From NCBI GenBank assembly GCA_024401305.1, contig JAKSLI010000018.1, positions 1 through 53,717 of the forward strand: a DNA stretch of 53,717 bases, in the 5' to 3' direction. This DNA comes from Bacteroidaceae bacterium. GTDB taxonomy: Bacteria; Bacteroidota; Bacteroidia; Bacteroidales; Bacteroidaceae. The translations under genes and the position numbers were made by a program. A model generated the notes under the pieces. That model did not search any database, had not been told where the DNA came from, and saw only the letters and a list, made by a program, of their open reading frames with translations. Numbering within the stretch: the first letter of the stretch is position 1; each line of letters starts with the position of its first letter. Positions 6,020 through 17,773 of this stretch are shown piece after piece.

Positions 6020-6099
6020 CTGTATGTTTAGTTCTTCTATATGGGACATTATCTTATGTTACATCATTGCGTATCGCATAACCGTACTATGCATTCTTT

Positions 6100-6978
6100 C
6101 TATCTATGAATGCTCCAATAATTGTCATAATAAGGTTTTAGTTGAGAGGTTATTACATCCATAACCACATCAAATGGAATCATTTCCTTCCATCTTATTT
6201 TTCTCAAGAATGCATTCCACCGTACAACGCGAGCGTTATCTCTCGCAAACTCCTCAGAGAACAACTTCAGATTCCCGTTAAACCTTAGTCCTCGGTTCTC
6301 GAATGTTGCATAGATAGCGCCATTCAGCGTATCACTTGAAATCTCCTTTGTCTTCAATATTTGGTAACAATCAAAGAAGTCCTTCATACGACTGTTCTTC
6401 TCATCCCTATCTATCATTGCGTGAAATTTCTCAGCAATCACAGTTTCTATAGAATAGGCCTTTATTTGTATACCTGGGATTTCTTGCAGCAGCAGGGGAA
6501 ACTCTATCGTCACTGGACATGGAGTTACAACATCGCCAAATCCGATGTCAATGGACATGTTGTATTCTATCGTATCCATCTTCGCATTGATATAAAAGCG
6601 TGTGCCAGGATATTTCTTTTCTACAGCTATTGGTTCTGTACGTAGCCTGTCAACATCAAAGGTTACTCCGTCTTCCGCACATTCTATAGAAAGAACCTCC
6701 TTGAACACATTCTCAAGATAGTCTCTGTCTCTGCTTATCTGCATCGCCATAAAGTCAACATCTACCGTAGGGCGCGAGTCCAAACCATCCATTGCATAAA
6801 GCAAGGAACCTCCCTTTAGCAGGAAGTTATCCTTATAATTGCTAATGGACACTCTATACAGCAAACGTTCATTAAAATATCTCGCCAACAGGTACATATA
6901 CTGATATCCCGATTGGTTCATCAGGTTCAACAGCTTAGTCCTAACAGACTTTCCATAATTCGTTATTGCCTTCTTCAT
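6100..6978 (-). CDS. abiEii: AbiEii-type nucleotidyltransferase toxin
   Basis: The 292-residue protein belongs to the AbiEii/DUF1814 nucleotidyltransferase family, the toxin of type IV toxin-antitoxin and abortive-infection systems. The NTase core is visible: LLKGGSLLYAMDG (KGGS motif), then RPTVDVDFMA (the DxD metal pair), later IDIGFGD. The C-terminal EKFHAMIDRDEKNSRMKDFFD block matches the family pattern aEKxxAxxxR...RxKDxxD. The start overlaps the stop of the upstream antitoxin gene by one base (TAATG), indicating translational coupling. Known family members modify tRNA or use NTPs to block growth; the target here is not known. Confidence 0.9.
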   Translation of the reverse strand: MKKAITNYGKSVRTKLLNLMNQSGYQYMYLLARYFNERLLYRVSISNYKDNFLLKGGSLLYAMDGLDSRPTVDVDFMAMQISRDRDYLENVFKEVLSIECAEDGVTFDVDRLRTEPIAVEKKYPGTRFYINAKMDTIEYNMSIDIGFGDVVTPCPVTIEFPLLLQEIPGIQIKAYSIETVIAEKFHAMIDRDEKNSRMKDFFDCYQILKTKEISSDTLNGAIYATFENRGLRFNGNLKLFSEEFARDNARVVRWNAFLRKIRWKEMIPFDVVMDVITSQLKPYYDNYWSIHR

Positions 6979-7556
6979 TACATCAATACTTCAAGGTAAT
7001 TATCCAGAACTTTGCTCACCCTCAGTTTTCTTGCATATTCAGAAAGTAGAGTCAGTTTTCTTTCAGGTTTGTTAAGATAAGTCTTTACTATCTCAGCGCA
7101 TAGGTCAAGACCAATCTTGTTGCGGTACTTTATTGCATCGCACACACTTCTTTCCATGTCTGTTATCCTTACTTGGTAGCCAGATATTTCTTTCAATACC
7201 GTTCCGAACTCCAGATTTTCTTTTTTCCAGTAATAAAGTGTAATCGGAAAGATGTTGGAAGTTCTTACCTTGCGCTTTGCTTCTATGGCTATGCAGAAGG
7301 CAGGCGGAACGGTTGTGGTCAGTTCGTAATAGCTCCATGCATTATACATACAGACGATACCCTTCGGAACTATCTTTTCCACATCAATCATCGTACTGAT
7401 GATAGACGACGGCTCAACATAGACACCTTGACGCACTCTGACCAGTTCGCCACGTTTCTCTGCACGCAAAATCTTCAGATAGTCGTTTCTGCTATGGATA
7501 TCTTTCGCGGAAAACACCCCATTGCGCGATTCATAATATGCATTTGTCCTATTCAT
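6978..7556 (-). CDS. abiEi: AbiEi-type antitoxin and autoregulator
   Basis: This 192-residue protein starts MNRTNAYYESRNGVFSAKDI. A longer frame upstream begins inside the operator repeat and is rejected because the promoter -7 box lies between. The N-terminal part is a winged-helix-like segment (AKDIHSRNDYLKILRAEKRGE, about 15-35), followed by the AbiEi block (VCMYNAWSYYELTT) and a C-terminal domain. In characterised systems AbiEi neutralises AbiEii and represses its own promoter by binding inverted repeats. The perfect inverted repeat just upstream fits that. The downstream toxin gene overlaps by one base. Confidence 0.87.
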   Translation of the reverse strand: MNRTNAYYESRNGVFSAKDIHSRNDYLKILRAEKRGELVRVRQGVYVEPSSIISTMIDVEKIVPKGIVCMYNAWSYYELTTTVPPAFCIAIEAKRKVRTSNIFPITLYYWKKENLEFGTVLKEISGYQVRITDMERSVCDAIKYRNKIGLDLCAEIVKTYLNKPERKLTLLSEYARKLRVSKVLDNYLEVLM

Positions 7557-7576
7557 ATCAGTGCTTTTTACGTGGG

Positions 7577-7654
7577 CAAAGGTACATTCTTTTTCAAAAA
7601 TATGCAAAAAGTTACGGAGAATATTGACTTTTACCGTAACTTTTTGCATATTTT
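7577..7654 (-). promoter_or_regulatory. Promoter with overlapping 21-bp inverted-repeat operator of abiE
   Basis: On the minus strand TTTG (7605-7608), 20 nt, TACCTTTG (7577-7584) forms a consensus promoter 20 nt before the abiEi ATG. A perfect inverted repeat has arms at 7597-7617 and 7634-7654 (21 bp each; core GCAAAAAGTTACGG) with a 16-nt spacer. The near arm covers the -33 box. This is the expected geometry for AbiEi autorepression. Confidence 0.8.
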
Positions 7655-7878: not shown

Positions 7879-9768
7879 CTAAGGAAGGAGAACGAGACGG
7901 AGTCCAAGGTCGTAGTTCCTGTAGTCTGGCGTGTAGTAGTAACGGTTCGACAAGCGACAGTGCCTCGCATAGTAGTCCCAGCTACCGCCACGACGCACTC
8001 GGCTAGAACCATTGTTAGGACCGGTTGGATTTGTTTGAGCAGAGGCTTGATAGTCGCCATACCAGTCAGAACACCATTCCCTCACATTACCGCTCATGTC
8101 ATAGATGCCAAGTTCGTTTGGAGATTTTGTTGCTACTGGGTGAGTTTTATAGCTGCTGTTATCCCAGAACCAAGCCACCTCTTCTACCGTATTGCTGCCA
8201 CTGTACTTATAGCCTTTGCTCTGTGAACCACCTCGGGCGGCAAATTCCCATTCGGCCTCGGTAGGCAAGCGGAATTGCTTTTCGGTGACTCCATTCAGTT
8301 TCTGTATGAATTTCTGGCAGTCATCCCAAGAAACGTTTTCTACAGGGAGATTATCTCCTTTGAAATTAGACGGATTACTGCCCATCACAGCCTTCCAAAG
8401 GGCTTGAGTAACCTCTGTCTGACCGATACAGTAGTCGTTTGTGAGAGTTACTTGGTGGGCAGGTTTCTCGTCATCAGAAGCATCTGAACCTTGCTCAGAT
8501 GTTGCGCCCATTGTAAACGTACCCGCCTTTACCAATATCATATTGAAGTCAACACCATTAGCATTAATCGTTATCAAGCTATCCAATGTAGGTTTAATAT
8601 ATGTTGAATCTACAGATGTTGTATCTACACCACTTCCTGAAGCTCCCATTGCCCCACCATATATTGAGATAGCTGATATTATCGCGATTATTGCTACCGC
8701 TATGCCGCCATACAACTTCCAATTGAAGGATTTCTGTTTTGGCGTAGGAGGCTGAGGTCGGGGGGCTGGACCCGGCTTGGGAGGTTCTGGGACTGGCTTT
8801 GGTTTCACGACCTCAACTTTCACAGTATCACCTTCCTCTTCACCAGACTTCGTTTTATCGTTATATTCAGTCTTATCCTCATCCGGATCAACAATATCAA
8901 TATCCTTACCATCAAGCAACTTTAGGAACTCGTCGATACTTTGCGGACGATCTTCCTCATGTAGCTGCATGGCGGCAGCGATGGCATTGCGAGTGACAGA
9001 TGAGATTGCCTTTGGCAATGGAGCGAGCGTCTTTTTCTTAAGGAATAGTAAGCCTGAGTTTGGTGGTGTTACGCCAGTAAGAAGCTTATACATTGTTGCA
9101 CCAAGGGCATAGATGTCGGAAGCAGGAGTAAACTCTGTTATGCCTTCTACTGTCTGTTCGTATGGAGCATAGCCCGGAGTGTTCAAGCCTTGCATTGTGG
9201 TGGTGTTCTCGCCAGTGCCTTCGTCGTAATGCTTGCTCGCTCCGAAGTCTATCAGCACTGCCTTGCCAGTGTTATCTACGAGGATGTTTCCAGGCTTAAC
9301 GTCCAGATGCAGACGGTTCTGTTGATGAACATACTTCAGCGCTGCCGCCACCTGACGGATATATCCGAGCATCTCCGTCTCAGACAATGAACCACGCTTC
9401 TTCAAAATGTCATTGAGCGATAGACCGTCAACATACTCCATGACATAGTATGCCGTGCCGTTCTCCTCAAAGAATGTGTTCACATGAACTATATTGTCAT
9501 GCTTCATCTTGAAGAGAGCACGCGCCTCTTCAATAAACTTCTGGCGAAGCTTTCCCATAAGTTCCCGCTTACTCTGATTCGTAAGCGTTATATGGCTTGT
9601 AGCCTCATCACGGACACAATAGTCCTTAACGAAGAACTCCTTGATGGCAACACGTGTTTCCATCAAGGTGTCGTATGCCTCGTAAGTGCAGCCGAATCCG
9701 CCCGCACTTATGAAGCGAACTATTTTGTATTGCCCTCCGTGGAGGGTTGAGTTTACAGGTAGAACCAT
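7879..9768 (-). CDS. Membrane Ser/Thr kinase with C-terminal SUMF1/FGE-like domain (copy 1)
   Basis: The 629-residue protein has an N-terminal Hanks-type kinase: Gly-rich loop SAGGFGCTY (21-29), VAIK Lys43, catalytic HLDVKPGN (154-161, Leu instead of the usual Arg of HRD), DFG at 174-176 and APYEQ at 201-205. A proline-rich linker (about 321-346) leads to one membrane helix (about 351-373). The C-terminal sulfatase-modifying-factor domain (407-629) has FRLPTEAEWEFAARGG and GNVREWCSDW. The two Cys of true formylglycine-generating enzymes, expected after GGSW, are absent, so this is probably a lectin-fold sensor, not an enzyme. The last 30 residues are Tyr/Asp/Asn-rich like retroelement-diversified proteins. 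It is the last gene of the island. Confidence 0.9.
   Translation of the reverse strand: MVLPVNSTLHGGQYKIVRFISAGGFGCTYEAYDTLMETRVAIKEFFVKDYCVRDEATSHITLTNQSKRELMGKLRQKFIEEARALFKMKHDNIVHVNTFFEENGTAYYVMEYVDGLSLNDILKKRGSLSETEMLGYIRQVAAALKYVHQQNRLHLDVKPGNILVDNTGKAVLIDFGASKHYDEGTGENTTTMQGLNTPGYAPYEQTVEGITEFTPASDIYALGATMYKLLTGVTPPNSGLLFLKKKTLAPLPKAISSVTRNAIAAAMQLHEEDRPQSIDEFLKLLDGKDIDIVDPDEDKTEYNDKTKSGEEEGDTVKVEVVKPKPVPEPPKPGPAPRPQPPTPKQKSFNWKLYGGIAVAIIAIISAISIYGGAMGASGSGVDTTSVDSTYIKPTLDSLITINANGVDFNMILVKAGTFTMGATSEQGSDASDDEKPAHQVTLTNDYCIGQTEVTQALWKAVMGSNPSNFKGDNLPVENVSWDDCQKFIQKLNGVTEKQFRLPTEAEWEFAARGGSQSKGYKYSGSNTVEEVAWFWDNSSYKTHPVATKSPNELGIYDMSGNVREWCSDWYGDYQASAQTNPTGPNNGSSRVRRGGSWDYYARHCRLSNRYYYTPDYRNYDLGLRLVLLP
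7909..7977 (-). other. Possible diversified (DGR-like) variable region at the kinase 3' end
   Basis: Codons 598-620 read DYYARHCRLSNR then YYYTPDYRNYD. Framework residues match diversity-generating retroelement targets, while the variable positions are mostly NAC codons (TAC, GAC, CAC) that could derive from AAC by first-A mutation. No template repeat or reverse transcriptase is in the window, so activity is unproven. Family conservation without a retroelement is the alternative. Confidence 0.35.
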
Positions 9769-9775
9769 AATTATA

Positions 9776-10396
9776 TCACTCTTTGTGATGTACTAATTCC
9801 TTAATTTCATCTAGCAAAGATTTATATTGATCACGCTCTTTTGCCAAAAGTTCATTAGCATAATCAGCATTAGCTAAATCTTCCGTCAATGAAATAATTG
9901 ATTGATCCATTATTGCTAATTCACCCAACAGTTGAGCTTCTTGAGTTGTCTTTGCTGATTTGCACTTGTTATAAAGGGTCCATATTATAGGTATTCTACT
10001 CTTGTTTGGCCATGGGCAGCTATAAATACTCTTTCCATCAGCAGCAAGATGAATACGCTGGTTTCTAAAACATCCATTGTAATTTACATACAATTTGTAT
10101 CGGTCATCTAATTCATTGGTATGAACACTTCCGTTGACATCAATAAACTCAACCGTATACCATGAATACCAATTTGTTACAGCCTTTACTTTATATCTGT
10201 GAATTATTAAGCATTGAACAACTCCTTCGTTATTAAGAATGTCGGGAGTTTCTGATACATTTGTTTCATTATTTTTATCTATTGAGACAAAGACTGAGTC
10301 TTGATACTGATAATGTTCTCCATTACTGTTTGTTTTACGCTCAAACTCACTTCTAAGTGAAAGAGCCATATCGTAAAGACTTGTAGTATTTTTCAT
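9776..10396 (-). CDS. Unknown protein with C-terminal coiled coil
   Basis: The 206-residue protein matches no family I recognise. The N-terminal two thirds look like a mixed beta region (YSWYTVEFIDVNGSVHTNE). The last about 60 residues, from TTQEAQLLGEL onward, form a likely coiled coil with heptad-like Leu/Ile spacing. No signal peptide or membrane helix is seen, so it is probably cytosolic. It sits 7 nt before kinase copy 1 and 18 nt after the UPF0489-like gene, so it is likely in the same transcript. It is AT-richer than the kinase genes, which suggests later insertion. Confidence 0.65.
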   Translation of the reverse strand: MKNTTSLYDMALSLRSEFERKTNSNGEHYQYQDSVFVSIDKNNETNVSETPDILNNEGVVQCLIIHRYKVKAVTNWYSWYTVEFIDVNGSVHTNELDDRYKLYVNYNGCFRNQRIHLAADGKSIYSCPWPNKSRIPIIWTLYNKCKSAKTTQEAQLLGELAIMDQSIISLTEDLANADYANELLAKERDQYKSLLDEIKELVHHKE

Positions 10397-10414
10397 AATT
10401 TTATTTCATTACAT

Positions 10415-11122
10415 TTACAGATTTAACTTTTGTAATCCTAATATGGGTGCAATCAGATTGTATGTTTGAAAAGCATTGTCCCATCCCCCACAACATTCTG
10501 GGCTTAAAGCGATAGTCATTACAGCTATGCCGTCTTTTGCTTTCTTTATATCTTTTGCTACCTTAACGATATATTCATCAGTTAAGATTTGTATACTGTC
10601 CCTATAAAAATAGTCTAAATCCAAATTTAGGATCCACTGCTCTTCTGTCTCCAAAATTTGACAACTGATAGAATCATACAGATCATGAAAACTTATTGGC
10701 ATGTCAATTATAAATTTATCTTTAAGTTCTTTATCTTGACAGAACTTTTGGGTTGCGAAATGTGACTTCAGGAACCAATTCGAATAGAACATCTTCGTTT
10801 GTTTAATATAACTATCCCAAGTGAAAGCTTTTACATTACGTTTGCCGCTCTTGAAAGATAGACCAAGATACTCTTTTAGTGTTATTTCCTGGTTCTCAAT
10901 AGCTTTTATGACATCGTCGGGAGCATTCGTTCGAAGATCGTTATGTTGGTCAATGTGATAAAAGTTATAATTAGAATCTTTGTCAAAGGTGTTCAACCAA
11001 CACCAACCCGCAGCAAGATGATTATCCATTACATAGACATTATCTTGTTGCCATAGAAAATTCAGAATCTCTATAGAAGATTCTTTTTCACGTATATTCT
11101 TAGGAGGTTCTAAAAGCCACAT
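10415..11122 (-). CDS. UPF0489-like protein
   Basis: The 235-residue protein resembles the UPF0489 family by the blocks VYVMDNHLAAGWCW (about 29-42), YHIDQHNDL (about 55-63), NLDLDYFYRD (about 167-176) and SPECCGGWDNA (about 208-218). The conserved His and Asp residues (DNH, HIDQHND, DLDYF) look like an arginase/deacetylase-type metal site, an inference from their spacing only. No biochemical role is known for the family. There is no signal peptide. It lies between the two kinases, 65 nt after copy 2, and its AT-rich composition differs from theirs. The family call is from memory of motifs and should be tested by profile search. Confidence 0.6.
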   Translation of the reverse strand: MWLLEPPKNIREKESSIEILNFLWQQDNVYVMDNHLAAGWCWLNTFDKDSNYNFYHIDQHNDLRTNAPDDVIKAIENQEITLKEYLGLSFKSGKRNVKAFTWDSYIKQTKMFYSNWFLKSHFATQKFCQDKELKDKFIIDMPISFHDLYDSISCQILETEEQWILNLDLDYFYRDSIQILTDEYIVKVAKDIKKAKDGIAVMTIALSPECCGGWDNAFQTYNLIAPILGLQKLNL

Positions 11123-11187
11123 ATTTTCAAATGCTTGTAAAGACGAGAAAATGAAGTTAATAATTCCTGACGTGTCTGTTTATACAA

Positions 11188-13050
11188 TTATGGAATGAGA
11201 ACGAGGCGTAGTCCAAAATAGTATGGTCCTTCAAGAGGATAGCCGCCTCCTTCCCAACGTTGCGATACACGACAATACCTAGCAGCAAATTGTTCGTAGT
11301 GCCAACCGCCGCCACGAACAGAACCACGGTTATCTCCCTCGGGATCAGTCTCAGCAGAACTGCTATAATTTCCCAACCAATCTTGACACCATTCCCAAAC
11401 GTTTCCGCTCATGTCATAGATACCAAGTTCATTAGAGATCTTAGTCGCTACTGGATAATAAGTTTGATGTATCTCATTGCTGTACCACGCAACTTCATTA
11501 ACGTTATTGCTGCCGCTAAACTTATATCCTTTGCTGTTATTTCCACCACGAGCAGCAAATTCCCATTCTGCTTCAGTAGGTAAGCGAAAGGTACGACCAG
11601 TAAGTGTATTCAAATTTTCGATAAAAGCCTGGCAATCTTCCAATTCAACACAATCTACAGGAAGATTGTCTCCCTCGAATTGACTAGGATTGTCACCCAT
11701 CACTGCCTTCCAAAGGGCTTGCGTAACCTCTGTCTGACCGATATAGTAGTCATTCGTGATAGTTACTTCGTGTGCAGGTTTTTCGTCATCAAACGCATCA
11801 GAGCCTTGCTCAGGAGTTGCCCCCATAGTAAACGTGCCAGCCTTTACCAATACCATATTGAAGTCAACGCCATTGGCATTAATTGTTATCAGGCTATCCA
11901 ATGTAGGTTCTATATCTGTAGAATCTACAGATGTTGAATCTCCACCACTTTCAAATGTACCCCATGCTCCGCTCCACCATATTGATAACACTGATATTAT
12001 TATTGTGATTATGGCAACCGCTCCTATGAATTCTATAATCTTCACATCGTTAGATTTCTGCTCTGGCGTAGGCGGCTGAGGCTGGGGTTCTGGAGCTGGC
12101 GCAGGAGGCTCTGGGACAAGCTGAGGTTCAGGCTCTGGTTCTGGATTTACTACACGAAAAGACACAGGGCTCCCCCCATAGGGAACAGTATCATCTTCAA
12201 ACAGTTCCTTGAATTCAGCCATGCTCTGCGGGCGAAGGTTCTTGTTTATCTGCATAGCCTTCTCAATGGCATTGCGAGTGACTGTGGAAATATACTCAGG
12301 CAGCGGCTTCTGCTTCTCACCACTTGATATGGTTGCAGCACTTATCGGCTTTATGCCGGTAAGAATGTTATAAAGCGTTGCACCGAGTGAATATATATCA
12401 GTTGCCGGAGTAAAAGTATTTACGTCGTTGCCCATCTGTTCCGTTGGTGCATAACCAACGGTGAATCCATTTATGGTGGCAGTATTCTCACCCGATTCCT
12501 CTTCATACTGCTTGCTCGCACCAAAGTCTATGAGCTGTGCTTTCCCCTCTGCATTGACCATGATATTGCCTGGCTTGACATCAAGGTGCAAACGATTGTT
12601 CTTGTGGACATATTCCAAAGCATCCGCTACCTGAAGGATGTACCTTACGGCATCTGTCTCAGAGAGAGGTCCTTGAGTGTCAACAATGTTCTTCAGCGAA
12701 GGACCGTTGATATAGTCCATCACATAGTATGATGTGCCGTTCTCATCAAACACATCCGACACAGAAACAATACTCGGATGGTTTAGTTTAGCAAGAGCGC
12801 GAGCTTCTTCCTCAAATTTACGTCTCAGCTTCTGGAAGAGAGCTGACTTTGCCGTAACGCCAACGGTGATCTGTGAAGTGGTCTCGTCGCGGTTGCAGAA
12901 GTCTTTTACGAAGAATTCCTTGATTGCCACACGCTTGTCAAGACCTGTATGTACGCCTTCGTAGGTGCAGCCAAAACCTCCTGCAGCTATGAAACGCTTT
13001 ATTTCGTATCGGCCTCCCTGAAGGAGTGTTCCTGATGATAAATGATGCAT
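11188..13050 (-). CDS. Membrane Ser/Thr kinase with C-terminal SUMF1/FGE-like domain (copy 2)
   Basis: The 620-residue paralogue of the kinase at 7879 has the same layout: Gly-rich loop AAGGFGCTY (22-30), VAIK Lys44, HLDVKPGN (155-162, again Leu for Arg), DFG 175-177, a Pro/Glu-rich linker (about 302-330), one membrane helix (about 339-360) and a SUMF1-like domain (396-620). The juxtamembrane and early SUMF1 segments are almost the same as in copy 1, even at DNA level. The C-terminal tip (GGGWHYEQFAARYCRVSQR, then WEGGGYPLEGPYYFG) differs completely. Formylglycine-generating Cys residues are missing. It is first of four tightly spaced genes; I found no consensus promoter in the 218 nt upstream. 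Confidence 0.9.
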   Translation of the reverse strand: MHHLSSGTLLQGGRYEIKRFIAAGGFGCTYEGVHTGLDKRVAIKEFFVKDFCNRDETTSQITVGVTAKSALFQKLRRKFEEEARALAKLNHPSIVSVSDVFDENGTSYYVMDYINGPSLKNIVDTQGPLSETDAVRYILQVADALEYVHKNNRLHLDVKPGNIMVNAEGKAQLIDFGASKQYEEESGENTATINGFTVGYAPTEQMGNDVNTFTPATDIYSLGATLYNILTGIKPISAATISSGEKQKPLPEYISTVTRNAIEKAMQINKNLRPQSMAEFKELFEDDTVPYGGSPVSFRVVNPEPEPEPQLVPEPPAPAPEPQPQPPTPEQKSNDVKIIEFIGAVAIITIIISVLSIWWSGAWGTFESGGDSTSVDSTDIEPTLDSLITINANGVDFNMVLVKAGTFTMGATPEQGSDAFDDEKPAHEVTITNDYYIGQTEVTQALWKAVMGDNPSQFEGDNLPVDCVELEDCQAFIENLNTLTGRTFRLPTEAEWEFAARGGNNSKGYKFSGSNNVNEVAWYSNEIHQTYYPVATKISNELGIYDMSGNVWEWCQDWLGNYSSSAETDPEGDNRGSVRGGGWHYEQFAARYCRVSQRWEGGGYPLEGPYYFGLRLVLIP

Positions 13051-13168
13051 AATGCTTATATGTTTTTATCAAGAATTCAGTATTGTTTTTTGAACACGAA
13101 TTTCACTCTTACGAATTAAGTTATCAGAAATAAGTTATATTTCATTGATAGTCTATAGCTTTTTATTA

Positions 13169-13242
13169 TCAATAAATTATACTTATAAGACTTATATTAA
13201 ATGCTGTTGTCTATGATAAGTATAATAAGTTCAATTTATTGA
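13169..13242. repeat. Imperfect AT-rich inverted repeat upstream of kinase copy 2
   Basis: TCAATAAATTATACTTAT (13169-13186) is mirrored at 13216-13242 with a 9-nt insertion in the right arm. It lies between the end of the PP2C gene and the kinase start (13051-13268, very AT-rich, no gene). It may be a terminator for the PP2C transcript or a regulatory site. Confidence 0.5.
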
Positions 13243-13268
13243 TACATAATCCATGTTTCAACGTATAT

Positions 13269-14255
13269 CTAATACCAATTCTTGATAGCTATTACAATGA
13301 GAGTTATGATGATGAGAGCAGCAATCAGATACTGCCAGAATGTTTTCTTATTGCTTTCTTTCTTTACCGGCACACGATGGCTCGGGCTGAGCGGAACGGT
13401 TGCAGGCTCTGGTTTTTCTGATGCAATGCTTTTCTCCACATGGGTTATCTCCACATATTCCGTCTGGTCAACATAGTCTTCCGTGACCTCACCCTCCACC
13501 TTTTCTATAGGAATGAGGTAGGCTGTGTAGTTGTCGCGAGTCTTGTCGATGCTCTCTGCTTCTATGAGCTTGAGTTTCTCTGCATCGGAGCACGTCATGG
13601 AAAGCACCTCTGTGAGGCGTTCGTCGGTAAGGTTTTCAAGTACACCGTCGCAACAAAGGAAGAGATAATCGCCCGACTTAACATCGGTGATGTTCTGCAC
13701 CTCTGCCGAAAGATGCGCAGAGTGAGGCTGGATAGCCTTGGTAATGACGTTCTTTCGTGGGAAGGTCTTAGCTTCCTCCGGAGTAAGTTCGCCTGCTTGC
13801 AGCAATGCCTGTACCAGAGAATGGTCGGCACTGCGATAGAGAATGCCGACATTAGGGCGGACATGGTATATGCGGCTGTCGCCCATGTGGGCAGCAAGCA
13901 CGCCATTGCCATGCAGACATACGCAAGTGAGGGTAGTTGCCATCGTGCATCTATCCTCACTTCCGTCCTTGTCTATGCTTTCCAGAAAAGCGTAAGCCTT
14001 CTCCACAGCTATCTGCACGTCGCTTTCTTCAACAACACCTTTTGCGGCAATTGCCTTGGAAAGGTGCTCACCAATGATGCGAGAGGAGTTCTGGCTTGCA
14101 ACCTCACCATGCTCACTGCCACCAACGCCATCACAAAGAACGATGCAACGGTTGTCGGCAGTGACATCCTCAAAAAGCGGCCATACAGCATCTTCCTGCT
14201 GATCCTTGCGACCTATATGAGAGTAGCCTATCGGCTTTCTTAGCTTGAATTCCAT
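13269..14255 (-). CDS. PP2C-family Ser/Thr protein phosphatase with C-terminal membrane anchor
   Basis: The 328-residue protein starts MEFKLRKPIGYSH, four bases after the stop of the upstream FHA gene. All PP2C metal-site motifs are present: GRKDQQEDA (usually NED), LCDGVGGSEHGE (about 40-51), HMGDSRIY, ADHSLVQALLQAGEL, LFLCCDGVLENL and DNYTAYL. A Ser/Pro/Lys linker precedes a C-terminal hydrophobic helix (last about 25 residues), which should anchor the catalytic domain at the cytosolic membrane face. It should reverse phosphorylation by the neighbouring kinases. It is the last gene of the block that starts at the LytTR gene; an AT-rich gap follows. Confidence 0.93.
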   Translation of the reverse strand: MEFKLRKPIGYSHIGRKDQQEDAVWPLFEDVTADNRCIVLCDGVGGSEHGEVASQNSSRIIGEHLSKAIAAKGVVEESDVQIAVEKAYAFLESIDKDGSEDRCTMATTLTCVCLHGNGVLAAHMGDSRIYHVRPNVGILYRSADHSLVQALLQAGELTPEEAKTFPRKNVITKAIQPHSAHLSAEVQNITDVKSGDYLFLCCDGVLENLTDERLTEVLSMTCSDAEKLKLIEAESIDKTRDNYTAYLIPIEKVEGEVTEDYVDQTEYVEITHVEKSIASEKPEPATVPLSPSHRVPVKKESNKKTFWQYLIAALIIITLIVIAIKNWY

Positions 14256-14259
14256 ATTG

Positions 14260-14817
14260 TTATTCAGTATATTCTGTAGCATCCTCGAAGTATCGTGGAC
14301 GCTGGAAGAGCACTTCCGTTGAGCCCATGAGCAGTTTGTCGCCCCATGAGAGGCAAAGCACCTCGCCTATGCCAACATTATTGCCATTGACCTTAACGAG
14401 GTTCCTGTCGTTCAGACTTTCAATGTGATGCTCCAAACCGCTGCCACCTTCCTTCACCGTAATGCGAACCTGGACGCGACTCATATACTTGTCTGTCACA
14501 TCCAGTTTTATGCTTGCTTCACAGGTTGGGGCGTTTCTGCCAGCGGTGTTCACGCCTTTCACAAGCGGATATTCCGTTCTGCCAACATAGAGCGATCCGA
14601 TAGTGCGATCTTCCTTCTTGAATGTGAGTGCTGTCTCGGTATCGTCATCCGTCACAGGAGCCGTATTCTTAGGCATAGCAGCTTCTATGAATACGGACAC
14701 CTTTGATCGATGTCCGCATATAGAGCATTTGAGCATTCTGTCCTCAATACCGGCATAATACGGTATCGTCAATACCGCCTTGCATGTAGGACAGGTTACT
14801 TTTATGGTATTTGCCAT
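14260..14817 (-). CDS. Zinc-ribbon plus FHA domain protein
   Basis: The 185-residue protein starts with a zinc ribbon (CPTCKAVLTIP at about 9-19, then LKCSICGHRSKV) and ends with a forkhead-associated fold (about residues 80-175). The phosphothreonine-site pattern is degenerate: GRNAP matches the GR turn, MSRVQVRI replaces the usual SRxH with SRVQ, and VNGNNVG provides the Asn. It may bind phosphothreonine weakly or bind a different partner. There is no membrane helix, so it is cytosolic. It lies 5 nt after the His-rich gene and 4 nt before the PP2C gene, so the three are surely co-transcribed. Confidence 0.85.
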   Translation of the reverse strand: MANTIKVTCPTCKAVLTIPYYAGIEDRMLKCSICGHRSKVSVFIEAAMPKNTAPVTDDDTETALTFKKEDRTIGSLYVGRTEYPLVKGVNTAGRNAPTCEASIKLDVTDKYMSRVQVRITVKEGGSGLEHHIESLNDRNLVKVNGNNVGIGEVLCLSWGDKLLMGSTEVLFQRPRYFEDATEYTE

Positions 14818-14822
14818 ATAAT

Positions 14823-15560
14823 TTATACCATTACTGCATCGTTAGTATAATCCGGCATATCGTCGCTTGCCTGCATGAAGTCGTCGCCAGAAGTCTGCTC
14901 AGGCATTGGCACGTTGTAGTCGGAAATGTCCTGAACTTCATTCTCAGAGATAGTACCACTGTCATCAATATCAATAACAGCTACATCAGCAGTACCTTCC
15001 TGGTCAACATCAACGAGAAGTCCCTGATGGCCATCCACGCTGATTACAGCAACATCAACATCCTGTCCGTTCATGTTCACATCATGCTCTACACCTATAA
15101 CGCGGATGTCAACATCTTCGCCGCTGCTTGTCTGCTGAATGTTTTGGTCTTCAATGTTCTGCGGTTCTTCAGGAGCATTGTTCTGCGCAATCGGCTCCTC
15201 TGGCTGTTGCGGAGCTTCTGCCTGCTGTGGTGCAGCCGCGTGATGGTGGTGATGATGTACCTCAGTATTATGATAATGATGAACAGTGTGCTCTACAACC
15301 TGTGGCTGTGCTGGAGCTTCCGTTTCAGCAACTTCCACTTCGCCATCTTCTGCACCTTCGGCGGTTTCTGCTTCGGCAGTTTCTGCGGCGTGATTGTTTA
15401 TTGCAGCCTGCGCTCCCATAGTAGCGGCAGAACCTACTGCTGCACCAGCAGCCGCTGCACCAGCCATCTTGAGGTTATCACTTACTGTAGATTTCTTTTC
15501 GTTCTTTTCCTGTACTTCTTCGTTCTCAACGTTTCTGTACAAAGTGTCATCGTTTGCCAT
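14823..15560 (-). CDS. His-rich, EF-hand-containing acidic protein, function unknown
   Basis: The start MANDDTLYRNVENEE is chosen because a promoter -7 box lies 33 nt upstream; the longer open frame would run back over that promoter. The 245-residue protein has an Ala/Gly-zipper helix (about 32-54, possibly membrane), acidic repeats, a His-rich stretch including six consecutive His (102-107), and a C-terminal beta-like repeat of DVD..VI units. It ends in an EF-hand loop DIDDSGTISENE (197-208) with ligands at positions 1, 3, 5, 7 and 12; DVDQEGT (184-190) is a second partial loop. Metal binding is likely, with Ca2+ at the loop. I recognise no family. Confidence 0.75.
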   Translation of the reverse strand: MANDDTLYRNVENEEVQEKNEKKSTVSDNLKMAGAAAAGAAVGSAATMGAQAAINNHAAETAEAETAEGAEDGEVEVAETEAPAQPQVVEHTVHHYHNTEVHHHHHHAAAPQQAEAPQQPEEPIAQNNAPEEPQNIEDQNIQQTSSGEDVDIRVIGVEHDVNMNGQDVDVAVISVDGHQGLLVDVDQEGTADVAVIDIDDSGTISENEVQDISDYNVPMPEQTSGDDFMQASDDMPDYTNDAVMV

Positions 15561-15592
15561 AGTATTTTTAGTTTTTATTGTTTTTCTGAGTG

Positions 15593-15622
15593 CAAAGGTA
15601 ATTCTTTGGGGTCTATTATCAA
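15593..15622 (-). promoter_or_regulatory. Internal promoter before the His-rich gene
   Basis: TACCTTTG (15593-15600) has a TTG (15620-15622) 19 nt upstream on the minus strand. It lies in the 110-nt gap after the caspase gene and could drive the His-rich, FHA and PP2C genes separately. Confidence 0.55.
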
Positions 15623-15670
15623 GAATGATTCTCCGTATAACGGACGAAACCGCCAGTTTGGCTGACGAAA

Positions 15671-16408
15671 TCACTTCTGCCAAACAACAATAGGCATCGT
15701 ATTGTTGAAATTGCCCCACATTACCGGATGTTGCTTTTCTGCCGTGGCGTATGACACTCCCTGATGCACGAAGTTGTATAACTCCTTTGCTGTGATTGTT
15801 CTGTTGCGGTCGGCATCAGCACCGCCTCCAAGTCCGCGTATGAGGAAACGAGTAAACTGTCCGTTCTTGCCGCCAGGCACTTCTTGCGATGTCTCATTGG
15901 TGCGAGAAGAAAGGAAGAACATCACATCGCCATTTCGAGCTTCGTTTACGGCAGAAGACTTGTCCTTGCGCAAACCACCACTGAAGCAAGCATCGGCGAA
16001 GACCATCTTTCGCCTTGCCTTGCACTGTTTGAAGGCAGTTTGCATCTCTGTATAACTCAAGCCTGTAGCCTTGCTTCTCATATCTACAGGGCAGAAGCCA
16101 CCTGGATAGCCATGACCTGAGAAGAAGAACACTACTGCATCGTTGCTTCCCGCTTGTCGGCATACTGTCTGTAATGTAGATAGTATGTTCTGCTTGGTAG
16201 CATTGCGGCCTTTGAATATATGAATAACGGCATCTTTCTTCTTGCACATCAGCGCATAGTAGCTGTCGGCATCAGCCTCACAGCATCTAAGGTCATTGAC
16301 AGAAGGTTCGATGTAATCATTGATACCTGCAATTACGATAAATGTTCTTTGAGCATTTGCACAGATTCCGCAAATCAAGAATAATATTATCAATATTGTC
16401 TGTCTCAT
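15671..16408 (-). CDS. Secreted caspase-fold (C14) protease with EF-hand-like loop
   Basis: The 245-residue protein has a signal peptide (1-20, ending CANAQ) and a caspase/metacaspase p20-like core: VIAGINDY (25-32), catalytic His99 in FFFSGHGYPGG and catalytic Cys141 in FADACFSGG. Residues 198-209 (DADRNRTITAKE) fit a 12-residue EF-hand loop, with Asp, Asp, Asn, Thr and Glu at positions 1, 3, 5, 7 and 12. The mature enzyme should work in the periplasm or outside the cell, probably Ca2+-controlled as in many metacaspases. It starts 3 nt after the FHA/membrane gene. Substrates are unknown; an effector or a processing role are both possible. Confidence 0.88.
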   Translation of the reverse strand: MRQTILIILFLICGICANAQRTFIVIAGINDYIEPSVNDLRCCEADADSYYALMCKKKDAVIHIFKGRNATKQNILSTLQTVCRQAGSNDAVVFFFSGHGYPGGFCPVDMRSKATGLSYTEMQTAFKQCKARRKMVFADACFSGGLRKDKSSAVNEARNGDVMFFLSSRTNETSQEVPGGKNGQFTRFLIRGLGGGADADRNRTITAKELYNFVHQGVSYATAEKQHPVMWGNFNNTMPIVVWQK

Positions 16409-16411
16409 AAT

Positions 16412-17089
16412 TTACCACTTCGTTTTGCAAGCTGTGCAGCATCCTCTGTTTTTCAGGTTCTCGAAAGGAAGGAAGCCTAGGAAACTCTTGCATTTTGGAC
16501 ATACGTAATCTACCATGAACTGCTTGTTCAGATTCTCCATCTTCACAGGCATATCCTGTTGACCCTTAAACGCCATCCAAGATGAAACGGCAATACCGCC
16601 AATCATAATCACACCCATGAAAGGTTTTATGGCATTTACGGAATCACCGAGTAGGAATGTAAGGGCGAACAGTACGGTAGAAGCAACGCCCGGCAAGGAG
16701 CGCAGGAACTGCTTCTTGGCATTTTCCTGTTGGAGCTTTATCTTTTCTGCCTGGTAGTTGTCATATACTTCCTTAAGCTTATCAAACTCTGCAGTGTAAT
16801 TTGCAGTTTGCTGAGTGTTAGTTTGCTGACCACCAACAGGCTTGCTGCTAGCAACCAATACATCACCTATGCGAATCTGAAATGTTGGTCCAAGAGTTAC
16901 TATGGTGTCCTCTGTAACTATCTTCTTGATGATTCTCGCTCCATCAACAAATGTACCGTTTGTAGAGCCGAGATCTTCTATTTCCACCTTGCCATCCGCA
17001 AGCTTTGTAACCTTAAGATGGCGTCCGCTTACGGACTTCTCTGTAATTGCGAAAGGCTGATTGCCTTTGCGTCCTACTATTATTTCCAT
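16412..17089 (-). CDS. FHA-domain membrane protein with C-terminal zinc ribbon
   Basis: The 225-residue protein has a canonical N-terminal FHA domain (about 1-65): VGRKGNQPF, the SVSGRHLKV phosphate-binding segment and LGSTNGTFVDG. A coiled stretch (about 95-125) follows, then two membrane helices (about 130-175) and a C-terminal zinc ribbon (CPKCKSFLGF at about 198-207 and CCTACKTKW at the end). It is the clearest phosphothreonine reader of the island and would bring phosphorylated partners to the membrane. It lies 10 nt after the LytTR gene and 3 nt before the caspase gene. Confidence 0.9.
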   Translation of the reverse strand: MEIIVGRKGNQPFAITEKSVSGRHLKVTKLADGKVEIEDLGSTNGTFVDGARIIKKIVTEDTIVTLGPTFQIRIGDVLVASSKPVGGQQTNTQQTANYTAEFDKLKEVYDNYQAEKIKLQQENAKKQFLRSLPGVASTVLFALTFLLGDSVNAIKPFMGVIMIGGIAVSSWMAFKGQQDMPVKMENLNKQFMVDYVCPKCKSFLGFLPFENLKNRGCCTACKTKW

Positions 17090-17099
17090 TATGTTTTGT

Positions 17100-17456
17100 C
17101 TATTCTGTCATTTTCTGTTTAAGAACCTTCAATGCCTCCTTTGGTACGGATAATGACACGGACTTATCAGTCGCCATATTGCTTAATGTCAGCGTTTGCT
17201 TTGGGAGGCAAATCTGCACAATGTAACGCCTGTCAACGATGTACTTTCTTCCTATACGAATATACATGCCGCGAGTCTTGTCAGTTACGGCATTTTCTAT
17301 CAGTTTCTCAAACTGAATGAGCGACATCGTAACCATCACACGAAGTCCGTTCTGCATAGTGATATACAGATAATTGCCGTCTGCTTCCGCATAAACCATC
17401 TTATCAAGGTCTATCTTGACAAGGTCGTCACGAGTATTGAAAATTATAGGAGTCAT
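17100..17456 (-). CDS. Stand-alone LytTR DNA-binding regulator
   Basis: The 118 residues are almost entirely a LytTR DNA-binding domain: IDLDKMVYAEADGNYLYI (about 15-32), the middle MSLIQFEKLI and YIRIGRKYIVDRRYI. No receiver domain is attached, so its activity is not controlled by direct phosphorelay; the neighbouring kinases or FHA proteins could act on it. It is the first gene of the island transcript, and the promoter -7 box ends only 13 nt before its ATG, so the leader is very short. It could regulate its own operon; no direct-repeat binding site was found by eye. Confidence 0.88.
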   Translation of the reverse strand: MTPIIFNTRDDLVKIDLDKMVYAEADGNYLYITMQNGLRVMVTMSLIQFEKLIENAVTDKTRGMYIRIGRKYIVDRRYIVQICLPKQTLTLSNMATDKSVSLSVPKEALKVLKQKMTE

Positions 17457-17468
17457 AAGTTATAAGTG

Positions 17469-17499
17469 CAAAAGTAAACTTTTTAAGGCAAATAGACAA
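17469..17499 (-). promoter_or_regulatory. Promoter of the signalling island
   Basis: TACTTTTG (17469-17476) with TTG (17497-17499) 20 nt upstream on the minus strand. The predicted start near 17465 leaves about 9 nt before the LytTR ATG at 17456, so translation may begin almost leaderless. Confidence 0.6.
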
Positions 17500-17668
17500 G
17501 AAAAATCAAGGAAATGTGTGGTTCCTGGCAAGTTTTCTATAAAGAAAACTAAAAATCCTCGTAAACAATTGGAGATTAACGGTTAAACAAACAGAAAGAG
17601 TGCTGGATTTTTCAACAAAAAAAGTCCCGAAGTCATGAAAATATCTTCGGCAGTTTTGGGTCGAGTTA

Positions 17669-17773
17669 CCGTGAGTTTTGAAATTATCTCCGTGAGTTTT
17701 GAAATTTTCCCTTAGAGATAATTTATTTTCCCTTAAAGATAATTTATTTTCCCTTAGAGATAATTATTTTTTC
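17669..17773. repeat. 21-nt-period tandem repeat array
   Basis: Five units at 17669, 17690, 17711, 17732 and 17753. The first two begin CCGTGAGTTTTGAAATT; the next three begin CTTAGAGATAATTTATT-like. Each ends in an AT-rich part and a CC/CT boundary. The 21-nt phase equals two DNA helical turns. A matching two-unit copy in the opposite orientation is at 41320-41347. It lies in the gene-free 17457-18054 stretch. Confidence 0.75.

Follow-up and report, generated by a model that had tools for sequence, protein, structure and literature searches.

What kind of system is encoded by a compact run of bacterial genes that joins two membrane Ser/Thr kinases to FHA proteins, a PP2C phosphatase, a caspase-fold protease and a LytTR regulator? 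The question is raised by positions 7879-17456 of a 53,717-nucleotide stretch of DNA, here called the window, from a Bacteroidaceae bacterium (assembly GCA_024401305.1, 86% complete; contig JAKSLI010000018.1). A first-pass annotation, made from the sequence alone, had placed ten minus-strand genes there and treated them as one set. All ten open reading frames (ORFs) were confirmed, and in order of transcription they encode LytTR, FHA_TM, the caspase, a His-rich protein, ZnFHA, PP2C, kinase 2, a UPF0489 protein, a 206-aa protein and kinase 1. However, only eight of these genes form the core of a conserved operon, whereas the two at 9776-11122 are rare cargo between the kinases. We propose that the core is a conserved envelope-sensing phospho-signalling operon with diversifiable receptor kinases, a reading for which we see about as much to say in favour as against. 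It is based on gene content and order, co-divergence of the families, catalytic motifs, enrichment of a short threonine motif, and the template/variable repeat pairs of diversity-generating retroelements (DGRs) in relatives. The features of the window, all on the minus strand, are as follows (TM, transmembrane segment; FGE, formylglycine-generating enzyme):

7879..9768, minus: kinase 1, a Ser/Thr kinase with one TM near residue 356 and an FGE-type ectodomain (Pfam Pkinase and FGE-sulfatase)
7882..8010 (bounds approximate), minus: variable-region-like 3' end of kinase 1, differing from relatives at the Asn-codon positions of the template of a related locus, L219
9776..10396, minus: cargo gene, 206 aa, without Pfam match
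10415..11122, minus: cargo gene with UPF0489 domain (Pfam 37.5 bits, cut-off 27)
11188..13050, minus: kinase 2, a Ser/Thr kinase with one TM near residue 338 and an FGE-type ectodomain without template-like tail (Pfam Pkinase and FGE-sulfatase)
13269..14282, minus: PP2C phosphatase with C-terminal TM tail (Pfam PP2C_2, 51.1 bits, cut-off 24)
14260..14817, minus: ZnFHA, a soluble FHA protein with N-terminal zinc-ribbon motif (Pfam FHA, 22.9 bits, cut-off 20.7)
14823..15560, minus: His-rich membrane protein of the SFxF family, lacking the SFxF domain itself (from relatives and reading of the sequence)
15671..16408, minus: caspase-fold protease (Pfam Peptidase_C14, 65.2 bits, cut-off 21.4) with signal peptide and SGHG and DACFSG motifs
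16412..17089, minus: FHA_TM, a membrane FHA protein (Pfam FHA); its hydrophobic region is read as a TM hairpin, and a zinc ribbon lies at the C-terminus
17100..17456, minus: LytTR DNA-binding regulator, first gene of the operon, without receiver domain (Pfam LytTR)
17469..17500, minus: Bacteroidetes-type promoter-like site, TACTTTTG at 17476-17469 with CTTG (one mismatch to TTTG) 20 nt upstream
12195..17555, minus: stretch with a second copy in the genome, on contig C105 (locus L023; ~95% nucleotide identity, 90% within the kinase part)

These assignments bear out the annotated pair of membrane Ser/Thr kinases with SUMF1-type domains, the membrane PP2C phosphatase, the secreted caspase-fold protease and the LytTR regulator. 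Both kinases have intact catalytic Lys, HLDVKPGN and DFG motifs and a single TM between kinase and FGE domain, and the caspase keeps its SGHG and DACFSG motifs behind the signal peptide. The two FHA readers, one of them in the membrane, were recovered as well; the zinc-ribbon motif that had been ascribed to one is seen in both. A His-rich gene is indeed present, but its description as an EF-hand protein had been a reading by eye: the protein matches neither Pfam in general nor an EF-hand model, and a profile of its relatives reached a calcium-binding protein at E 0.16 only. Spacing had been given as mostly 3-20 nt, which holds for five of the nine junctions (gaps of 3-18 nt); the others are one 23-nt overlap and three longer gaps (65, ~110 and 218 nt).

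How far does this arrangement extend beyond the window? A profile of FHA_TM found matches in 84 of 398 genomes of the genus at E <= 1e-6; the match is weak in 18 of these, and 66 genomes, including that of the window, reach 100 bits; in the order, 40 of 393 genomes match, 11 including the window's own at 100 bits or more. An SFxF profile run over 84,980 species genomes yielded 149 relatives, from which 79 loci were kept (80 at most being allowed) with titles such as Prevotellaceae, Prevotella, Segatella copri, Bacteroides caecigallinarum, Alistipes and Muribaculaceae, among others, and one metagenome-assembled genome titled Clostridium. After removal of duplicates, 134 distinct loci with FHA_TM remained, mostly Prevotellaceae by title, with Bacteroides, Alistipes and Muribaculaceae also represented. 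Their recurring order is LytTR > FHA_TM > SFxF/His-rich > (caspase) > ZnFHA > PP2C > kinase, with a median gap of 15.5 nt between operon genes. Counted on the strand of FHA_TM, the most frequent adjacent pairs are LytTR>FHA_TM (99), ZnFHA>PP2C (91) and FHA_TM>SFxF (70), followed by SFxF>ZnFHA (53), caspase>ZnFHA (51), PP2C>kinase (48, of which 40 have motif-confirmed kinases) and SFxF>caspase (41). Some of these loci are cut by contig ends; as they stand, they contain ZnFHA in 122 cases, SFxF in 112, PP2C in 103, LytTR in 101, a motif-confirmed kinase in 78 and the caspase in 70. The 103 loci with PP2C carry ZnFHA in 100, SFxF/His-rich in 92, LytTR in 77, a motif-confirmed kinase in 72 and the caspase in 66 cases. 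Moreover, the distance matrices of six families correlate at 0.59-0.77, values reached by 0 of 200 permutations each. The genes are thus not unlinked in relatives, and the possibility that unrelated signalling genes have clustered by chance, to which two rare cargo genes among ten might lend some colour, is negligible in view of this conserved order and co-divergence.

If the kinases are receptors, are their outward faces diversified? We scanned 170 loci (not deduplicated; the window with bases 1-25000) on both strands for DGR pairs, defined as repeats that span 60-400 bp and differ at 8 or more positions, where 80% or more of the mismatches face A in one copy but no more than 20% do so in the other. 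Although the scan was open to all genes, kinases or not, each of the six template/variable pairs detected, which lie in four of the 170 loci (L156, L157, L198 and L219), has its variable repeat at the 3' end of a kinase gene. Together, 130 of 140 mismatches fall at template adenines (L156, 20/21 and 22/23; L157, 25/30 and 24/25; L198, 24/25; L219, 15/16). All four loci hold a reverse transcriptase (RT)-like gene with the motif IGNLTSQ, identified as RVT_1 by Pfam in L219 and L198 and as RT-like by phmmer in L156 and L157. The kinase domain is Pfam-confirmed for five of the variable-repeat genes; the sixth, in L198, lacks its beginning because the contig starts within it, and what is left reads as a kinase C-lobe at its N-terminal end. 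In L156, L157 and L198, further core genes adjoin the RT. The kinases of these four loci combine an adenine-specific template/variable pair with a neighbouring RT, and they are classed as DGR variable proteins.

Kinase 1 of the window is not classed as a DGR target. It does possess a variable domain of FGE/C-type lectin (CLec) type: among PDB structures, its ectodomain best matches variable protein 1 of Treponema denticola (2y3c, E 5e-44), with which it shares the RGGSW...RL tail. We take this protein to be TvpA, a DGR target, which presumably is not fused to a kinase; the FGE-type fold is what the two have in common. The template of L219 encodes RGGSWNNNARNVRVSNRNNNTPGNRNNNNGLRLAL, and kinase 1 ends RGGSWDYYARHCRLSNRYYYTPDYRNYDLGLRLVLLP. 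The codon comparison relies on this template of a relative, rather than an own one, and on the tail of the FGE protein of L023; in that island, the FGE domain forms a protein of its own (370 aa) instead of being part of a kinase. All 13 codons of kinase 1 at template-Asn positions end in C or T, as do 127 of the 219 codons in the rest of the domain (p 0.002). Relative to L023, third positions differ in 5 of 35 tail codons versus 113 of 196 before the tail (p 1.8e-6), while positions 1-2 differ in 8 of the 13 template-Asn codons versus 4 of 22 others (p 0.02); these p-values are descriptive because homologous sequences are not independent. Mutagenic retrohoming from a template common to both would be expected to leave such a codon pattern. 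Neither this pattern nor the DGR-variable type of the ectodomain, both of which bear on recognition, figured in the first-pass annotation. In alignments with FGEs, whose active site involves a Cys pair, the enzymes' RGGSYLCHDSYC stretch pairs with RGGSWDYYARHC of kinase 1, where one Cys is seen. The only RVT_1 match in the genome lies on contig C11 beside a different Asn-rich repeat; this RT (L034:1-1736) has the motif IGLRSSQ, and the short Asn-rich frame next to it (45-248) resembles a template/variable repeat of an unrelated DGR.

A second line of evidence concerns the substrates that the kinases might act on. Many SFxF proteins start with short acidic-x-Thr-x-hydrophobic tags, at times in arrays. 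The motif [DEN]xT[EQIVTLAK][YF], set by eye after viewing these tags so that its count in SFxF proteins is descriptive, has 69 matches in the first 60 residues of 197 SFxF/His-rich genes (54 with at least one), as compared to a mean of 4.1 in shuffles and to 26 matches when the same N-terminal length was counted in 1629 control genes. It is also enriched in the linkers of ZnFHA (21 versus 3.9 in shuffles) and of the kinases (25 versus 6.7). The window's own instances are DDTLYR (His-rich protein), DKTEYN (linker of kinase 1), DQTEYV (tail of PP2C) and DATEYT (C-terminal end of ZnFHA). Judged from their sequences, the tags look like phospho-acceptor sites for FHA domains. A related principle operates in GarA/OdhI-type FHA switches, in which a Hanks kinase phosphorylates a short N-terminal acidic-Thr motif that FHA then recognises. 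There, motif and FHA reside within one soluble protein, whereas here a membrane protein carries the motif and other proteins provide FHA.

The third line concerns export. Signal-peptide-like N-termini are found in 192 of 299 accessory genes within operon runs, as compared to 251 of 878 flanking genes, and in 82 of 89 caspases. None of the LytTR, ZnFHA, PP2C, kinase and FHA_TM genes scores as signal-peptide-like, which serves as a check on the heuristic. The system looks outward-facing.

From these observations we infer ligand binding, phosphorylation, FHA docking, membrane topology and output, the latter including any part in defence, along the following lines. The receptor kinase would consist of a cytosolic kinase, one TM and a periplasmic ectodomain. 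This ectodomain, exchangeable and in part of FGE/CLec type, would bind a ligand and thereby activate the kinase; in some loci it would be mutated by a DGR. The active kinase would then phosphorylate the SFxF/His-rich membrane protein at Thr within its short acidic-x-Thr-x-aromatic tails, and probably also Thr in the linkers of the kinases and ZnFHA. The two FHA proteins are predicted to bind the phosphothreonines and to build a complex at the membrane, which PP2C would reset by dephosphorylation. LytTR, encoded first, may set expression of the operon. Finally, the exported caspase and accessory proteins would form an outer arm, whose most likely task is to remodel or process proteins of the surface. 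A more far-reaching version, which we put forward tentatively and regard as somewhat doubtful, is an immune-like receptor-kinase system of gut and rumen Bacteroidales whose periplasmic face is rewritten by DGRs and from which a dedicated phosphothreonine code (threonine tags, two FHA readers and PP2C as eraser) leads to a periplasmic caspase and to LytTR, providing heritable and diversifiable recognition of phages, neighbours or host ligands.

Several observations weigh against this envelope-sensing reading. Kinase, PP2C or caspase is missing from many loci, and an RT is present in 4 of 170 only; in one of these, L219, a stretch of 8 kb that holds neither an FHA nor a PP2C gene separates the kinase from the SFxF gene. 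FGE ectodomains are in the minority (6 of 56 kinase C-terminal parts). In the window's own assembly there is neither a template repeat of the kinase 1 tail nor a matching RT, an absence that is not proven because the assembly is 86% complete. Kinase 2 lacks the template codon pattern, and the nonsynonymous excess at the 13 template-Asn codons between window and L023 is not significant (p 0.08). As to the threonine motif, PP2C tails are not convincingly enriched (11 versus 5.2, shuffle maximum 12), kinase catalytic domains are rich in it for another reason (2.83 per 1000 aa), an unbiased residue-pair count is not headed by it, and the kinase 2 linker of the window is devoid of it.

Could the locus instead be a dedicated conflict system, in which diversified kinases sense phage or rival ligands and trigger caspase-mediated death or growth arrest, that is abortive infection or kin discrimination? 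For multicellular bacteria, DGR-diversified sensors with caspase- or trypsin-type effectors have been suggested to sense antigens (PMC10907252, PMC7159879), and the kinase-kinase-PP2C (KKP) module is antiphage (PMC11341870). In addition, both kinases match the PADLOC kinase models mad6 and PD-T4-6, the caspase weakly matches a PADLOC caspase model (49.2 bits, 7-177 of 453), and AbiE-type genes adjoin the island. However, the kinase matches are to the generic kinase domain: the PD-T4-6 model PDLC04042 scores 160 and 177 bits over most of its 292 positions, and one PD-T4-6 model is matched at 7-274 of 292, with no cut-off given. Membership in MADS was rejected, as NCBIfam mad6 gave 122.1 and 140.8 bits against a cut-off of 460. 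Signal-peptide-like caspases, moreover, should not reach cytosolic targets. PADLOC-type matches are not commoner next to islands in a small sample (14 families among 75 near genes versus 32 among 75 far genes), and the families are rare on mobile elements: SFxF occurs in 1 of 72,556 plasmid records and one viral contig, and FHA_TM in 1 of 50,697 phage records. The defence role suggested by the first-pass annotation is thus not favoured by the surroundings of the islands or by the predicted export of the caspase, and we think a conflict system rather unlikely.

Plain envelope-stress or nutrient sensing, in which the kinases monitor envelope or glycans, ectodomain differences are ordinary divergence and DGRs are occasional add-ons, would fit the wide range of ectodomains. 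Besides the FGE cases, the 56 scanned C-terminal parts comprise Lcl_C (7), MORN (5), Fib_succ_major (3), WG (2), Sel1 (2), TonB_C (2) and single cases including FKBP and OmpA. The signal-peptide-like accessory proteins, the secreted proteins of kinase-poor loci and the low number of loci with DGRs agree with it, too. What this explanation does not account for is that six of six variable repeats fall in kinases in a scan not restricted to them, and that the window kinase shows the template codon pattern; we consider it distinctly improbable.

Post-translational control of a type VI secretion system (T6SS) or another secretion system is a very remote prospect. The first-pass annotation had drawn a parallel to the T6SS control trio PpkA/Fha/PppA, which likewise comprises kinase, FHA and PP2C, and had rightly noted that no secretion gene is among the ten. 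The parallel is an analogy only: the locus adds caspase, SFxF and LytTR, Pfam detected no secretion gene in the ten proteins, and the genome has no match to TssC/VipB, a single marker searched in an 86% complete assembly, for which a divergent T6SS could be missed because the control was positive only in E. coli.

Returning to the proposed envelope-sensing operon, how does it relate to described systems? The annotation knew of no system with this exact set, and likewise we found no description of the operon among the papers listed by searches of the open-access literature, subscription papers and preprints being outside the search. DGR-diversified Ser/Thr kinases with C-terminal CLec domains carrying the variable repeat have been described in cyanobacteria (PMC7517822), where orthocaspase-like domains are found among DGR variable proteins too; FHA or PP2C partners are not mentioned in the accessible part of that paper, which was not searched for them by name. 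The loci described here differ in that they are from Bacteroidales, have a TM between kinase and ectodomain and belong to a conserved LytTR/FHA/SFxF/caspase/PP2C operon. The antigen-sensor systems of multicellular bacteria share hypermutated FGE/CLec sensors near peptidases, and a Pkinase domain stands in a legend of target-protein domains, yet they centre on STAND NTPases, MoxR/vWA and EAD adapters, and in the accessible text the words 'FHA' and 'bacteroid' are absent (PMC10907252). As no MoxR/vWA or STAND NTPase domain was found by Pfam among the ten proteins, assignment to a ternary (vWA-MoxR) or STAND conflict system was rejected. KKP modules also combine two Ser/Thr kinases and PP2C in one cluster and involve FHA, but KKP kinases, as described from prophages, include FHA and CSD as fused domains (PMC11341870); the window kinases carry TM and FGE instead, with FHA on separate proteins, and were not assigned to KKP. 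Other related work covers conflict systems (PMC7159879), prokaryotic caspases (PMC3501461) and bacterial PP2Cs (PMC12088040); in the accessible text of Roux et al. (PMC8144416), the word kinase is absent.

The proposed phospho-signalling operon is widespread in common gut and rumen bacteria, and no earlier description of it was found among the papers listed. It introduces SFxF, a newly named small domain without Pfam match, and places directed hypermutation in receptor kinases beyond cyanobacteria. It may also provide a bacterial case of a caspase controlled by receptor kinases from across the membrane. Since cultured relatives carry the operon (Segatella copri iAQ1173, Bacteroides caecigallinarum and Prevotellaceae bacterium HUN156), the ligands of such receptors become testable.

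The second island of the genome on contig C105 provides a view of how the unit evolves. Window 17555 to 12195 aligns with L023, the shared stretch stopping just past the catalytic domain of kinase 2; beyond it, similarity between the two is limited to a short repeat and to kinase and FGE stretches that have diverged. Identity is a mosaic (LytTR 100%, ZnFHA 98.2%, PP2C 95.5%, caspase 94.7%, FHA_TM 89.8%), which suggests recombination or gene conversion between the copies. All three Pkinase matches and both PP2C matches of the genome sit in the two islands. A repeat of ~50 nt at 6032-6085 of the window, with three copies in L023 (17296-17349, 18122-18171 and 19365-19414), is located close to the downstream end of both islands.

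Individual genes deserve some further remarks. Upstream of LytTR, the promoter-like site follows what we take to be the Bacteroidetes promoter consensus; its strict form is present in 20 of 98 LytTR upstream regions, as compared to 0.32 in shuffles (the upstream region of the window is outside the 98). In the paralogue, the PP2C reading begins at a later ATG, corresponding to window position 14255. The His-rich ORF was listed as extending to 15719, but more likely starts at the ATG at 15560, whereby the overlap with the caspase gene disappears; its product has an N-terminal acidic-Thr-aromatic tag, a Gly/Ala-rich hydrophobic stretch and a C-terminal Asp-rich domain. The zinc ribbon of FHA_TM has four invariant Cys columns among relatives, and the Cys4 motif of ZnFHA was read by eye, Pfam ribbon models scoring below their cut-offs. 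The one SFxF member scanned has no Pfam match. In a structure model of the SFxF relative of Prevotellaceae HUN156, the N-terminus and the linkers are disordered, while two small domains (residues ~79-135 and 181-245) are modelled with confidence; a structure search gave no significant match.

Variants of the operon include a secreted 351-aa family common to 24 of 91 loci, many of which consist of LytTR-FHA_TM-SFxF-ZnFHA without kinase or PP2C. In the kinase-less relatives L026, L027, L082-L085, L088, L090 and L093, secreted proteins follow the operon; the one large neighbour scanned, in L026, is a BspA-type leucine-rich repeat/MBG surface protein. Outside Bacteroidales, Runella rosea plasmid NZ_CP030851 (L262) bears a related VWA-FHA-SFxF-FHA-PP2C-caspase cluster with OmpA-family, WG-repeat and SUMF1-type genes as neighbours.

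The cargo genes are much rarer: that for the 206-aa protein was matched in 4 and that for the UPF0489 protein in 3 of the 398 genus genomes, the window's own included, and neither was found in any of the other 90 of 91 loci compared. Five relatives elsewhere have no core gene nearby, as far as their short stretches extend. A relative of the 206-aa protein (L267:1495-2100) neighbours a 478-aa protein (L267:3-1436) that by eye resembles nuclease-related (NERD) proteins. The operon itself is flanked by alanyl-tRNA synthetase on one side and by an AbiEi/AbiEii pair on the other, the latter directly downstream at 6100-7649 and comprising an AbiEi-type regulator (27.7 bits, cut-off 25) and an AbiEii nucleotidyltransferase toxin. 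Upstream of the operon, at 17704-17770, lies a 21-nt tandem array of 3.2 copies, outside the unit common to the second island.

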